Shown piece after piece: positions 93 through 30,797 of a stretch of DNA of 35,268 nucleotides. This DNA is from Chthoniobacter flavus (GTDB lineage: Bacteria > Verrucomicrobiota > Verrucomicrobiia > Chthoniobacterales > CAKUMP01). Location of the stretch: assembly GCA_020718605.1 (NCBI GenBank), contig DYRR01000004.1, forward strand, positions 1 through 35,268, read 5' to 3'. A model generated the notes under the pieces. It was not told where the DNA came from, did not search any database, and saw only the letters and a program-made list of their open reading frames with translations. The position numbers and the translations under genes were made by a program. Numbering within the stretch: the stretch's first letter is position 1; the number at the start of each line of letters is the position of its first letter.

Positions 93-155
93 AAGGTGCC
101 GGGCCTGCAATCCCCCTCTCCCTCCCGCGCGAGAGGGCGAGGAAAAGTTCTCCAT

Positions 156-862
156 ATGAAAAAGATCAACCAATCCGAAATCAACGACGTCGCGTGGCGC
201 GCCTGCGACACTTTCCGGGGCGTCGTCGATGCCGAAAATTATCGGAACTACATCCTCGTGATGCTCTTCTGGAAATACATGTCCGACTGGCAAAGCTGCT
301 CGCGCCGAAGAAGGCTCAGACCATCTGCGACCCCTCCTGCGGCTCCGGCTCCTTGCTCATCAAAGTCGGCCGTCAGGCCGATGAGCGGGACTTCGCCCTC
401 TTCGGCCAGGAGATGAATGGCACCACCCATGCCCTCTGCCGCATGAACATGTTCCTGCACGGCATGGACAACTTCCGCATCGAGTGGGGAGACACCCTGC
501 GGAATCCCCGCCTCACCGAGCACGACCAGATCATGAGGAAAATTTACTGGAGGCCGTCATCGGCCTGTCGGCCAATCTCTTCTTCGGCACCGGCATCCCC
601 GCCGCCATTCTGATCTTCAATAAAGCCCGGACCACGGGCGATGTTCTCTTCATCGACGCCTCCCGTGAGTATAGGGAGGCCAAGAACCAGAACATCCTCA
701 CCGACGAGCACGTCCAGAAGATCGTGAGCACCTACGCGGCCTTCCAGATCGTGGAAAAATACGCCTACCGCGCCATCCCGCAGGAGATCGCCGACAACGA
801 CTTCAACCTCAATATCCCCCGCTACGTCGATACCTTCGAAGAAGAGGCCGAGATTGACCTGA
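156..862 (+). pseudogene. hsdM: Type I restriction-modification DNA methyltransferase HsdM, decayed by internal deletions
   Basis: MKKINQSEINDVAWRACDTFRGVVDAENYRNYILVMLFWKYMSDW (frame 3), then KLLAPKKAQTICDPSCGSGSLLIKV...FALFGQEMNGTTHALCRMNMFLHGMDNFRIEWGDTL (frame 2), then ENLLEAVIGLSANLFFGTGIPAAILIFNKAR...DNDFNLNIPRYVDTFEEEAEIDL (frame 1). The segment between N-terminus and motif I, and the NPPF segment, are missing. Confidence 0.88.
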
Positions 863-1287
863 TTTCATCTCCTTCGAACGTCTTCGAAAAACTCAAGCGT
901 GTAAACGAACACGGCTCTGAAACATGGTCTGCCCGTGAGTTGGCAAAAATCCTCGAATACTCGGAATTCCGCCACTTCCTGCCTGTCATCGCCAAAGCCA
1001 GGGAAGCCTGTGAGAAGAGCGGACACAAGATCCAGGACCATTTCGAGGAAATGCTCGATATGGTCGAAATCGGCTCCGGTGCCCAGCGCCCGGTGGAGAA
1101 CTGGCTCCTCTCCCGCTACGCCTGCTACCTTGTCATTCAGAATGCGGACCCGTCAAAACCACTCGTTGCTTTGGGGCAGACCTACTTTGCTGTTCAGACC
1201 CGCCGCCAGGAGCTGACCGATGCCGATGCCGTCAAGGAGGAAAAGATGCGCCTCCTGCTGCGGGATGAGATGCTGGGACAAGCGTGA
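863..1287 (+). pseudogene. dinD: DinD (DNA damage-inducible protein D) domain, fused in frame to the HsdM remnant and C-terminally truncated
   Basis: FEKLKRVNEHGSETWSARELAKILEYSEFRHFLPVIAKAREACEKSGHKIQDHFEEMLDMVEIGSGAQRPVENWLLSRYACYLVIQNADPSKPLVALGQTYFAVQTRRQEL is DinD-like; ORF 484-1287 reads through from HsdM. Confidence 0.8.
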
Positions 1288-20290: not shown

Positions 20291-20398
20291 GGGCGCATCT
20301 CTTGAGGATAGGAGCGCGGGCATCCTGCCCGCTTATTGAAGAATGCGGGCAGGATGCCCGATCCATTAAACAACGTCTTTGCCATCGGAGATGCGCCC
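20291..20398. mobile_element. MITE-like nested palindromic element, copy A
   Basis: Terminal inverted repeats GGGCGCATCT (20291-20300) / AGATGCGCCC (20389-20398); inner hairpin GCGGGCATCCTGCCCGC ... GCGGGCAGGATGCCCG; flanked by direct repeat GTGGTCGG (20282-20289 and 20399-20406). Confidence 0.75.
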
Positions 20399-20508: not shown

Positions 20509-21573
20509 TCAGACTTCGCCCCGGGCCTGTTTGGCGCGGTGTTTTTCCACGAAATATTTCATCGTGTGAAGGATGGTCGAACGCATGTCGTGTTTGCTGG
20601 TCCAACCGAGGCCGCGTGCCTTGGTGACCACCGGGATCCGGCGGTCGCAATCCTCGTAGCCGGGGCCGTAGAATTCTTCGCCCGTGACACTGACAATCTC
20701 CGGGGTGGGATCGCCGGGCTGGCGGAATTCCGTGTTGAAGACCTCCACGCAAATATCGCAGAACTCCTTGATCGTCACCTCGTTGTCGGGGGTGCCGATG
20801 TTGATGATCTGATTCTTGCACTTCTCGGGATTCTCGATGATGCGCACCATGCAATCGACGGCGTCGTCGATGTAGGTGTAGGCACGGTAGGCGGTGCCGC
20901 CGTCCACCAGTTTGAGCGGGGTGCCGTAGAGCAGGCCGTTCATGAAATGGCTGAACACACGCGGATTGCCCTGAGCCTCGCTCGGCAGGAAATCGATGCG
21001 GGGCCCGATGAAATTGAAGGGGCGGATCACGGTCCACTCCAGGGATCCCCGGAGTCCGTATCCGTGGAGCACGCGCTCAAGAAGCTGCTTGGCGCAGGCA
21101 TAGATCCACCGCTGATTCTTCACGGGGCCCATGATGAGCGGGGTCTCGTCCTCGCTGAAGGGCATCGGATGGGTGCGGGAGTCGAGCCCCATGGCCTTGG
21201 CGGCCGTGATGCCATAGACCTCGCAGGTCGAGAACTGGATGAGGCGCTTTTTGTGGCGGATGCACTGCTGCACCACCTTCATGTTCTGGGTGAAGTTCAG
21301 ATCGAACACACCGACCGGATCTTCCACGTAGAGGGAGGGATTGGCAAACGCCACCAGATCGACCACCACATCGGAGGCTGCCACCAGTTTGTCCACCTCG
21401 GCTTCGTCCTTGGAAATGTCGAGATGGAGAAAATGAAGGTCCGTATCCAGCAGTTCGGAAATTTTTTCGTCCTGAATGTCCACCGCCGTGACTTCGTGAA
21501 CACCATCTTTCATCAGACGCTCCGTGAGGTTTACGCCGATGAATCCGCCAGCACCCAGTAATAGTATTTTCAT
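20509..21573 (-). CDS. NAD-dependent epimerase/dehydratase, similar to the ArnA C-terminal (UDP-glucuronate decarboxylase) domain
   Basis: MKILLLGAGGFIGVNLTERLM Rossmann motif; FSTCEVYG; RWIYACAKQLLERVLHGYG (YxxxK); RPFNFIGPRIDFLPSE; NIGTPDNEVTIKEF. Confidence 0.88.
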   Translation of the reverse strand: MKILLLGAGGFIGVNLTERLMKDGVHEVTAVDIQDEKISELLDTDLHFLHLDISKDEAEVDKLVAASDVVVDLVAFANPSLYVEDPVGVFDLNFTQNMKVVQQCIRHKKRLIQFSTCEVYGITAAKAMGLDSRTHPMPFSEDETPLIMGPVKNQRWIYACAKQLLERVLHGYGLRGSLEWTVIRPFNFIGPRIDFLPSEAQGNPRVFSHFMNGLLYGTPLKLVDGGTAYRAYTYIDDAVDCMVRIIENPEKCKNQIINIGTPDNEVTIKEFCDICVEVFNTEFRQPGDPTPEIVSVTGEEFYGPGYEDCDRRIPVVTKARGLGWTSKHDMRSTILHTMKYFVEKHRAKQARGEV

Positions 21574-21698: not shown

Positions 21699-21759
21699 GA
21701 GGAAGATGATAATTTTTTACTGGTATTAGAATAACTTGGCGGTGGAGTCGTCCGCAGGC

Positions 21760-21880
21760 GGGCGTATCTCTGAAAGTTGCAAATCAAAGGAGCGCGGGCA
21801 TCCTGCCCGCTTGGTGGAGAAAGCGGGCGAGACGCCCACGCTCCCTTCACGAAGCGTCTTTGCAACTTTCGGAGATGCGC
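21760..21880. mobile_element. MITE-like nested palindromic element, copy B
   Basis: Outer arms GGCGTATCTCTGAAAGTTGCAAA (21761-21783) and TTTGCAACTTTCGGAGATGCGCT (21859-21881) pair at 20 of 23 positions; inner GGAGCGCGGGCATCCTGCCCGC / GCGGGCGAGACGCCCACGCTCC; flanked by direct repeat TCCGCAGGC (21751-21759, 21881-21889). Confidence 0.78.
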
Positions 21881-21928
21881 TCCGCAGGCTGTCTCTGTGT
21901 CCGGATCCGGGTTCTGATGTCGTTCTGT

Positions 21929-22825
21929 TCAGTCTTCCGGTAGATTATGGAGTTGGCGGCAGGCTTTTAGGGTGTTGGCCATGAGCATGGCGATGGTCAT
22001 GGGTCCCACGCCTCCCGGCACGGGCGTGATGGCGGAGCAGCGCGGGGCGACTTCCCCGAACGCCACGTCCCCGACGAGGCGATAGCCTTTTTCCGAGGCG
22101 GGATCCCCGACGCGGTTGATGCCCACATCGATCACCACCGCGCCTTCGCGGACGTGTTCCGCGCGCACATACTCCGCGCGTCCGATCGCGGCGATGAGGA
22201 TGTCGGCCCGCCGGGTCACTTCGGGCAGGTCGCGGGTGCGGGAGTGGGCGACCGTGACGGTGGCGTCGCCCCCTGCGCCTTTGCGCATCAGGAGGAGAGC
22301 CAGGGGTTTGCCCACGATCATGCTGCGCCCGAGAATGACGACATTTTTTCCGCCGGTCGGGATGCCGGAAGCCTCGAGCAGCCGCACGCAGCCCAACGGG
22401 GTGCAGGGAACGAATCCCCGCGGATCGTCCATGGCGAGCCGGGCGACGTTGAGAGCATGGAATCCGTCCACATCCTTGCGCGGATCGATGGCGTCGATCA
22501 CGGCGGCCTCGTCGATATGTGCCGGCGGGGGGGACTGGACGAGGATGCCGTGGATGGAGGGGTTTGCGTTGAGGGAACGGACGAGGGCGAGAAGTTCGCC
22601 CTGCGGCGTGTCGGCGGAGAGTTCAAATTTCTCCGAGTAAAATCCGAGTTCCCGGCAGGTGCGGTCTTTGGAGCGCACATAGGCGCGGGAAGCGGGATCG
22701 TCGCCCACCAGCACGACCGCAAGGCCGGGAGTGAGTTCGCGGGCCTTGAGCCGGTCTGTGGCCAGGCGGGTTTCTTCGAGTGATGCGCGGGCGATCGCTT
22801 TGCCGTCGATGAGTTTGGGTGCCAT
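21929..22825 (-). CDS. folD: Bifunctional methylenetetrahydrofolate dehydrogenase / methenyltetrahydrofolate cyclohydrolase
   Basis: [108 protein letters not shown]. Confidence 0.97.
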
Positions 22826-27698: not shown

Positions 27699-30600
27699 TC
27701 AGCCCTGGGTGGCGTTGCGTTCGAGGAGACGGGCGGTGAGGGTTTTGGCGGGAAGGTCGGGCGGGAAACCGTAGGCTTCGGCGACCGCGGCGTCGAGGGC
27801 GGCATGCGCGGCGGCAAGCCATGCGGGACGGGTGTTGTAGAGCTTGGTGAGTGTGCGTTCCGCAAGCCGGGTCGCACACTCCGCATCGCGGGGCACAAGT
27901 CTCGGGTAACGCGCCATGCCGCCGGTCACATAACGCGCCCATGGACCATCGATGGAGGCCGGGAACTCCAGCACTTCCTCACGGGTCCACTCGGGCGGAT
28001 TGAGCCAGCGCCGCCGCAAGGTGTCCAGTTCCAGCGCCGCCGCCGAGATCCGCCCATGCTGCGCCTGCTGCCCGGACGTGAGTTCATCCGGCGGCATCCG
28101 GTGATCCCAAGGAAACGGGAAGGTCTCGAAACAGGTGGTGGGCGTGTAGCGAAAGCCGGATTCCTTTTCGCGCAACTGCGTGCCTTGCGCGAGCGACCAT
28201 GCTTCGTGGATGCGCGAATGCAGGACGCCGAAAAAGAAATCGTCGGAGCGGGCGAAGACGACCGTTTGGTCATCCGTGATCAGTGGCCAAGTGAACCATG
28301 AAAAAATGCGGTGTTTGGCGACTCGTGGCGTCGCAATAAAGCGGGGAAGATTGGAAATAGAAGCTCTCAACTCCGGGCGAATCCGCTGAAGCTTCCACCA
28401 GTTTTCTTTGAGCCATTTATTCCGGTTGGAATCCCGTGCGGGTTTCACCCTTGAGATGATAATTTCAAAAGGCTTTTCAAACATCTGCGCTTCCGCCCGG
28501 GTCATATCTGAATTATCGACCAGCCATCTTGGTTCACCGCGTCTCAAAATATCCATGCCGTTGCAGATCGGCTTGATGACATCGCTGTTGGGGAGTCCGT
28601 TGGGATTACCGGCCGAGGCCAACATCGCGCGGCCTTCCTCATCGGTGATGTCGAAACTTCCACCCTTGGTTACGCCGATAAAGCCAATACCGGAATTCCC
28701 CGGAAGGACGTTGGCGGTGGCGATATTTGCCGCCGCCGAAAGATTGGCATGGATTTCCCCGACCGGCACTCCATCGAGGACACAAAGGAGCGCGGGCGTC
28801 CCGCCCGCTTCGTTATCCAAATCGGGCGGGACGCCCGCGCTCCTTTGGGGAGCATTCCATTCCTTGCTGCAGAATCCGACCATCGAGATGTGGACGTTTG
28901 CGCCGTCGAGAATCCAATCGCGGTCGCTGACCGCAAAGAAGATGTCCCCCGATTCCTTGATGCGCTTGAGCACCTCGCGGTTTGCGCCGCCCCGGATGCC
29001 CTGGGTGGCGAGCAATCCGGCGCGCTTCACTTTGTCGTCCGCAATGAGTGCGCGGGTTTTCTCGAACCAATAGCAGCAGAGATCCGATTGCCCAGGAAGT
29101 CGGCCATGGAAAACCTTGCGAAGCGATTCCACGTAGTCATCGCCCAATTCACGCCGCATCATTTTGTCGCCCAGAAACGGCGGGTTTCCCACGACCACCA
29201 CCTCATGATCCGCACGGAACGTCGGCCACTGGCGTTCCTTTGGGTTGGCCGGATCGCTCAGGTCCAGCAGGGCGTCCATGAAATGGAAGTTCTCCAATTT
29301 TTTCAGCAGCGGGGTGGTGGTGAGCGGGTAGCCATTGCCCCGATGCCATTGCAGATAGCCGATCCAAAGCGTCATCTGCGCGAGTTCGAACGCGTAGGGA
29401 TTGATCTCGATGCCGTGGAATTGCCACGGGCCGATGCCGGGAAAAAAGCCGGTCTCCAGTCCGTCGCCGCCGCCGAAGAGGATGACTTCCTTTTCCAGAT
29501 CCTTGAGTTTTTGCAGGGCGATGTAGAGGAAATTGCCGGAGCCGCAGGCGGGATCGAGCACGTGCACGCGGGAGAGCCGGAGGAGAAAGGCGTGCTTGAG
29601 GCGTGCGCCTTCTTCGAGCGCCTTGCGCAGGGCGGGACCGGCGGGCGGCTTTGCAAAATCGGCGGGCTTGGGTGTCTTCTTTCCGGTGCGCAGCAGATGG
29701 GTGAGCGTGATTTTCAAAGACTCCCACTCGTGGCGCAGTGGCGCGAGCAGAACGGGGTCGATGAGATCCTCGATGTCGCGGCGTCCGGTGTATTCCGCTC
29801 CGAGCGCGGCGCGGGTGGCGGGATCGAGTCCGCGCTGGAAGAGCGTCCCAAAGATCGAAGCGTCCACCGCGCCCCAGTCGAGCCCGCAGGCGGCATGGAC
29901 AATGTCGAGTTCCGCCGGGGCAAGTTCAAGCACCGTGACATCGGAAAAGAGGCCGCCATTGAAGTGTCGGATTTTTTCGTATTGGAACTCGCCGCCGTCC
30001 GCCATGGCGCGGAACAATTCCCCGGCATACCGCGCGAAACGTTCGGGCTCGCCGCGGGTCTGGCCGACCAGCCGCGAGAACATGTCGGCGGGAAGCAGCC
30101 CGACATCCTCGGCAAACAGGCAGAAAATCATGCGGTCCAGGAAGCGGGCGACGGGTTCGGCGGGCTGACCGCGTCCGCGCAGGCTGCCGGCGAGTCCGGC
30201 GAGCGCGGAGGCCGCGTTGCGGGTCACCGTTTCGGACGTGATGCCCGGGCGGAGTTTGCCGGGGTTGTGAAACAGGGCGTGCAGGGTTTCGAGATTGCGG
30301 GGCTCGGCGAGACCGGCGGAGGTGATGCGCAGGACCCGTTCTGCCGTGCCAGTGAAGTTCGTGTGAATCTCGATGACATCCGTGTCGCAGACCACAAGCA
30401 GCGGCGGGTTTTCCAGCGAGGCGCGGTAGCGGAGCAGTTGATCGTAGGCTTTGGCGAGATTGGCATGGCGGCCTTTGTACTCGAAGGCAAAGGCGCCTTT
30501 TTTCCAGACATCCGCCCAACCGTCGCCGCCCCCGTGCTTTTCGACACCTTTCTCGAAGCAGAAGGATTCGCCGGTCGGGTCCAGTGCGGCGGGAGCGGGA

Positions 30601-30707
30601 TGGCCGGTCAGTGCGCAGAGATCGAGAAAATGCTGCTGGTAGGACGCCCGCTCCGAAAGATCGGTCTTTGCCCATTTCGCGATAAAATCCGCCACGGAAA
30701 GTGCCAT
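27699..30707 (-). CDS. MmeI-like Type IIL restriction-modification enzyme (N6-adenine methyltransferase with N-terminal nuclease)
   Basis: GWADVWKKGAFAFEYKG (PD-ExK-like), FLDRMIFCLFAEDVGLLP, HVLDPACGSGNFLYIALQ (motif I), FHGIEINPYAFELAQMTLWIGYLQW, VVVGNPPFLGDKMM (motif IV), YTPTTCFETFPFPW. Confidence 0.9.
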   Translation of the reverse strand: MALSVADFIAKWAKTDLSERASYQQHFLDLCALTGHPAPAALDPTGESFCFEKGVEKHGGGDGWADVWKKGAFAFEYKGRHANLAKAYDQLLRYRASLENPPLLVVCDTDVIEIHTNFTGTAERVLRITSAGLAEPRNLETLHALFHNPGKLRPGITSETVTRNAASALAGLAGSLRGRGQPAEPVARFLDRMIFCLFAEDVGLLPADMFSRLVGQTRGEPERFARYAGELFRAMADGGEFQYEKIRHFNGGLFSDVTVLELAPAELDIVHAACGLDWGAVDASIFGTLFQRGLDPATRAALGAEYTGRRDIEDLIDPVLLAPLRHEWESLKITLTHLLRTGKKTPKPADFAKPPAGPALRKALEEGARLKHAFLLRLSRVHVLDPACGSGNFLYIALQKLKDLEKEVILFGGGDGLETGFFPGIGPWQFHGIEINPYAFELAQMTLWIGYLQWHRGNGYPLTTTPLLKKLENFHFMDALLDLSDPANPKERQWPTFRADHEVVVVGNPPFLGDKMMRRELGDDYVESLRKVFHGRLPGQSDLCCYWFEKTRALIADDKVKRAGLLATQGIRGGANREVLKRIKESGDIFFAVSDRDWILDGANVHISMVGFCSKEWNAPQRSAGVPPDLDNEAGGTPALLCVLDGVPVGEIHANLSAAANIATANVLPGNSGIGFIGVTKGGSFDITDEEGRAMLASAGNPNGLPNSDVIKPICNGMDILRRGEPRWLVDNSDMTRAEAQMFEKPFEIIISRVKPARDSNRNKWLKENWWKLQRIRPELRASISNLPRFIATPRVAKHRIFSWFTWPLITDDQTVVFARSDDFFFGVLHSRIHEAWSLAQGTQLREKESGFRYTPTTCFETFPFPWDHRMPPDELTSGQQAQHGRISAAALELDTLRRRWLNPPEWTREEVLEFPASIDGPWARYVTGGMARYPRLVPRDAECATRLAERTLTKLYNTRPAWLAAAHAALDAAVAEAYGFPPDLPAKTLTARLLERNATQG
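28784..28846. repeat. 63-bp perfect palindromic element inside the MmeI-like CDS (21 codons, in frame)
   Basis: AAAGGAGCGCGGGCGTCCCGCCCG (28784-28807) N15 CGGGCGGGACGCCCGCGCTCCTTT (28823-28846): 24-bp arms, perfect. Encodes roughly QRSAGVPPDLDNEAGGTPALL. Confidence 0.85.
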
Positions 30708-30712
30708 GCCGC

Positions 30713-30742
30713 AGGCTATCCGTGGTTGGGCGGCGGATTCAA
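30713..30742 (-). promoter_or_regulatory. Predicted promoter TTGAAT-N18-TAGCCT for the MmeI-like gene
   Basis: Minus strand TTGAAT (30742-30737), 18 nt spacer, TAGCCT (30718-30713); ATG at 30707 only 5 nt past the -10. Confidence 0.5.
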
Positions 30743-30797
30743 GCCCGCAGAGCATCCGACGCGACGCCTGTGCCCGTGGTGGCGGGATGGTCGGGCT

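Follow-up and report, generated by a model that had tools for sequence, protein, structure and literature searches.

Elements of the ISKra4 and related (p-MULT) groups have inverted repeats of 18-39 bp and direct repeats of 8-9 bp; circular intermediates occur in several Mutator-like families, and some ISKra4 elements carry an extra passenger ORF (PMC3942029). In a survey, ISKra4 elements were found to prefer sites 50-250 bp from genes (PMC9208149). Classical bacterial MITEs are non-coding, hairpin-forming elements of 70-300 bp with terminal inverted repeats (TIRs) of 15-30 bp, and often lie near genes (PMC3733652). In this study, we describe a 121-bp non-coding nested palindrome, copy B, at 21760-21880 of the window, the 35,268-nt stretch analysed here, which is contig C258 of the Chthoniobacter flavus host assembly (2.46 Mb, 284 contigs). 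The element is very probably a non-autonomous MITE of the ISKra4 group, whose transposases are prokaryotic Mutator-like DDE enzymes. The features of the window are as follows.

21751..21759, no strand: left 9-bp target-site duplication TCCGCAGGC, read from the sequence and covered by the flank statistics
21760..21783, + strand: left TIR GGGCGTATCTCTGAAAGTTGCAAA of copy B, with 2 mismatches to the ISKra4-type TIR GGGCGCATCTCCGAAAGTTGCAAA
21789..21844, no strand: inner REP-type hairpin GGAGCGCGGGCATCCTGCCCGCTTGGTGGAGAAAGCGGGCGAGACGCCCACGCTCC of copy B, found alone across the class and flanking Y1 (RAYT-type) transposases in G243
21859..21880, - strand: right TIR TTTGCAACTTTCGGAGATGCGC of copy B, lacking the terminal CC of other copies
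21881..21889, no strand: right 9-bp target-site duplication TCCGCAGGC, read from the sequence
20291..20398, + strand: copy A, 108 bp, same family and more diverged, with flanks GTGGTCGGT / GTGGTCGGC matching at 8/9 and ends GGGCGCATCTC...GAGATGCGCCC
28783..28848, no strand: inner REP hairpin standing alone, lacking the TIR shell, within a long ORF at 27699-30755 (- strand)

Copy B has two neighbours on the - strand, folD, whose stop lies near 21929, and an NAD-dependent epimerase-like gene at 20509-21573, both named by inspecting the translations. It lies at the folD 3' end and 187 bp upstream of the epimerase-like gene start, and copy A lies 92 bp upstream of the start of an FmdB-like gene; both distances fall within the 50-250 bp preference of ISKra4 elements. 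At the start of the window (96-1287), a type I methyltransferase-like gene appears split into overlapping frames. The family TIR is 24 bp long, GGGCGCATCTCCGAAAGTTGCAAA, and is common to the copies. The right end of the other copies reads ...GATGCGCCC; its terminal CC has been lost from copy B. The first-pass annotation, made from the sequence alone, had described a nested palindrome in a 121-bp intergenic block with outer arms pairing over about 20 of 23 positions and a perfect 9-bp repeat on both sides. All three descriptions hold: an inner palindrome of ~56 bp (about 21789-21844) lies inside outer arms of 22 nt (21762-21783 / 21859-21880) that are 91% complementary, and TCCGCAGGC stands at both flanks. 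The reading of the nested palindrome needs one qualification: it is composite, its inner hairpin being a REP-type repeat in its own right that lies outside the mobility ends of the MITE.

The predicted RNA fold of copy B is very stable on both strands (-73.8 and -77.6 kcal/mol, z -8.7 and -10.1), and 0 of 200 shuffled sequences were as stable. Together with the position 3' of folD, this would suit an ordinary intergenic stem-loop, a terminator or mRNA stabiliser repeated by happenstance. No Rfam match was obtained, and the terminator and promoter scan returned nothing, a terminator-type T-tract being absent. The 9-bp duplications, and a TIR held in common with a transposase gene, are also unexpected in a terminator family. 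We therefore regard this explanation as extremely improbable; as an account of origin it is refuted by the duplication data, and a secondary role is possible. If transcribed, the whole element would form one long hairpin at the folD 3' end, upstream of the epimerase gene.

A total of 43 BLAST matches were obtained in the host assembly, a number that counts in matches on both strands and to the inner hairpin alone. Seven copies are complete, two of them on C258 and the others on C178, C56, C251, C180 and C19. Partial copies number about 10. Copies on C63, C127, C108, C190, C21 and C67 are cut by contig ends, where two pieces may in some cases be halves of a single copy, and C192, C39 and C116 hold fragments of the element. 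Both ends and the hairpin core are common to the aligned copies, and copy A is a second, older insertion of the family. The expectation of identical TIR ends at different sites was thus borne out; that of dozens of copies was not, the host having about 7 complete and about 10 partial ones. A MITE is short, non-coding and multi-copy with TIRs, and here the unit is 121 bp long, has 24-bp TIRs and is present in 7 complete plus partial copies.

Target-site duplications were scored by scanning the fetched loci for all inverted GGGCGCATCTC-like end pairs 60-400 bp apart and comparing the adjacent 9-mers. This gave 18 elements from the host and related genomes, including copy B, which was added manually, as its truncated right end is two bases out of the scan register; with the right boundary set at 21880 its flanks match at 9/9. 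The flank matches over the 18 elements were 9, 9, 9, 9, 8, 8, 8, 8, 8, 8, 8, 7, 7, 6, 5, 3, 3 and 2 out of 9 (mean 6.9/9). Among individual elements, copy B and C251 scored 9/9, and C178, C56, C180 and copy A 8/9. In 306 mismatched pairings of left and right flanks from different elements the mean was 2.65/9 and the maximum 6. Flanks of at least 8/9 accompanied 11 of the 28 inverted pairs of the real 11-mer end and 0 of the 296 pairs of 30 shuffled 11-mers, so the 9-bp duplication is a property of this end sequence. Chance is excluded as the source of the matching flanks. The predicted 8-9 bp duplications at variable flanks were recovered at different sites, and most copies have the duplication expected of a MITE (9 bp; at least 8/9 in 11 of the 18 elements; controls 0/296). 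The insertion on C251 (L033) adjoins another repeated, palindromic-looking sequence, GGTCAGGACTGGAGTCTGACCCTCC, and its 9/9 flank match could therefore partly reflect a pre-existing repeat. The empty-site comparison, made with genomes from outside the host's family, gave no base-exact empty site: at the G243-family locus of the relative's copy, the downstream coding part alone aligned and the flanks could not be aligned to the junction.

When GTDB contigs were searched for the TIR pattern, a putative cognate element was identified on L054, a contig binned as Solirubrobacterales. Two perfect inverted 24-bp TIRs, identical to the MITE consensus at 24/24 positions on both ends, bound 2171 bp (L054:185-2355) encoding a DruA-domain ORF (Pfam PF14236, 1.3e-22) and a 411-aa transposase ORF. 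The latter matches the NCBIfam ISKra4 profile (NF033572) with an E value of 1.3e-55 over residues 6-403 of 411, its 189.3 bits falling just under the curated cut-off of 205, and Pfam UPF0236 above the cut-off. Its candidate catalytic D-D-E positions are conserved with two relatives. These results place the cognate transposase in the ISKra4 family, and the repeat lengths agree with that group (inverted repeats of 24 bp within 18-39 bp, duplications of 9 bp within 8-9 bp), as measured on the MITEs; L054, the one complete copy of the IS, lacks matching 9-bp flanks. Outside this setting, DruA is known as a component of Druantia, a defence system. A passenger ORF with a DruA domain, like DruA of Druantia, was observed upstream in ISKra4-type elements, at L054:256-1098, on host contig C12 (L128) and at L083:602-1486; a DruA and ISKra4 pair of similar kind is present in G495. 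PADLOC gave no match to the DruA-like ORF.

The left end of the L054-type element was found on three further Verrucomicrobiota contigs. In the host, C12:1-814 has 79% DNA identity to the first 814 bases of the L054 element and a TIR matching at 21/24, with the DruA-like frame open up to the contig end, and C34:9687-9729 is another left end. No complete L054-type element was found in the fragmented host assembly, where the two left ends are cut by contig ends, and the transposase half of the DruA-carrying element is absent from this assembly. The anticipated transposase with the same ends was located, the MITE sharing its ends with a transposase-bearing element (24/24 at both L054 ends) and with the host partial copies (21/24). 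By this identity of ends, the transposase of the DruA-carrying lineage appears linked to the MITE. The sole ISKra4-like transposase found in the host, on C86, is a full-length, 438-aa open frame with 40% identity, and might instead be the enzyme that mobilises an ISKra4-group MITE of this kind; one of its ends, GGGCGCATCCCTGAC, matches the first 9 bases of the MITE. That match extends no further than GGGCGCATC, against 21-24 of 24 bases for the DruA-carrying elements, and mobilisation by the C86 relative is accordingly judged improbable.

Internal-deletion derivatives of the cognate with both TIRs were observed at L138:1445-1723 (G243 C104, 279 bp) and L130:1444-1837 (G435 C70, 394 bp); neither has matching 9-bp flanks. 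Short elements can thus arise by deletion, but this is not demonstrated for the present MITE. A simple internal deletion of the cognate was considered as its origin, and the TIRs are the only part that the two have in common.

The core of the inner palindrome, GGAGCGCGGGCATCCTGCCCGC...GCGGGC..GACGCCC..GCTCC, is also found outside the shell. The stand-alone hairpin at 28783-28848 lies in frame in a DNA-methyltransferase-like ORF, where it encodes the peptide RSAGVPPDLDNEAGGTPALL and leaves the frame unbroken. The hairpin occurs many times in G243 and in other genomes of the class, and the matches mostly cover query positions 30-86, exactly the hairpin. On G243 contigs C330 and C15 it flanks Y1 tyrosine (RAYT-type) transposase genes, as a RAYT-associated REP does. 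Since it occurs alone and beside Y1 genes, the inner palindrome is best read as a REP, a separate and class-wide hairpin distinct from the mobility ends of the MITE.

These observations, and the presence of Y1 transposase genes in the host, would also agree with mobilisation of a REP/BIME-type repeat by a RAYT (HUH Y1) transposase, in which case the outer arms would simply belong to the palindrome. The repeated boundaries and 9-bp duplications are located at the outer TIRs and not at the REP, the TIRs are identical to those of a DDE element, and a REP was not seen next to the Y1 genes of the host itself. Moreover, target duplications are not known from IS200/IS605-type transposases. Mobilisation by a RAYT is thus very improbable. 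The reading as an ISKra4-group MITE is supported by the common TIR ends, the 9-bp duplications and the transposase-bearing element with identical ends.

A 99% identical unit of shell and REP was found in G243, a genome of the same order and a different family, with flanks GCCAGATAC matching at 9/9. Because this unit recurs with a perfect duplication, the composite appears to be mobile as one unit. Related shells with other palindromes are present on L081, L053 and L045; the one at L081:1227-1366 (G066) has related ends GGGCGCATCT, a duplication of 8/9 and a different palindrome, TGTAGCCGCGAGC... In the mechanism that we propose for the ISKra4-group MITE, the transposase would bind the common TIRs in trans, and the 121-bp unit would be excised or copied, probably by way of a circular intermediate, which has been reported for related families. 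A 9-bp staggered cut at insertion would then leave TCCGCAGGC on both sides. The interior would be a captured REP hairpin, of a type found elsewhere at the flanks of RAYT (Y1 tyrosine) transposases, and the MITE may thus carry a second mobile repeat. We also put forward a broader and rather doubtful proposal of a two-tier mobile repeat, in which the ISKra4-type MITE shell is a vehicle spreading REP hairpins, and the same or related shells carry different palindromic cargos across Verrucomicrobiota (the GGAGCGCGGGC REP here, the TGTAGCCGCGAGC hairpin in G066, other interiors in Chthoniobacter); the DruA-like gene of the cognate may assist or regulate transposition.

A MITE family is hereby defined for Verrucomicrobiota, together with its probable transposase. 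The results suggest that REP hairpins can spread without a RAYT of their own by riding in a DDE-transposon shell, and the repeated pairing of ISKra4 transposase and DruA domain raises a testable question on the role of DruA-like proteins in transposons. Our literature search for ISKra4 MITEs, DruA with ISKra4 and nested REP-MITE elements found no earlier description, which does not prove absence. The novelty is moderate: the MITE family is new and of an already known kind, and its nested cargo is unusual. Two mobile-DNA systems are nested here, a REP inside an ISKra4-type MITE shell, in an arrangement that is uncommon but understandable.

Among known systems, the ISKra4 group (p-MULT 4) and its derived MITEs share with this family the long TIRs, the 9-bp duplications, a cognate transposase matching the ISKra4 profile and a passenger ORF. 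Here, however, the MITE and its cognate have the TIRs alone in common, the passenger is a DruA-domain protein and the interior is a REP hairpin. REP/REPtron systems (RAYT, Y1) resemble it in the inner palindrome, a high-copy REP that in a related genome flanks Y1 transposase genes, but the complete 121-bp unit, unlike REPs, appears to use its outer TIRs for movement and to duplicate its target. Classical MITEs (RUP, Correia/NEMIS, Nezha, EFAR) are alike in size, TIRs, lack of coding capacity, hairpin formation and frequent location near genes, and differ from this family in its ISKra4-type ends, 9-bp duplication and nested second palindrome.
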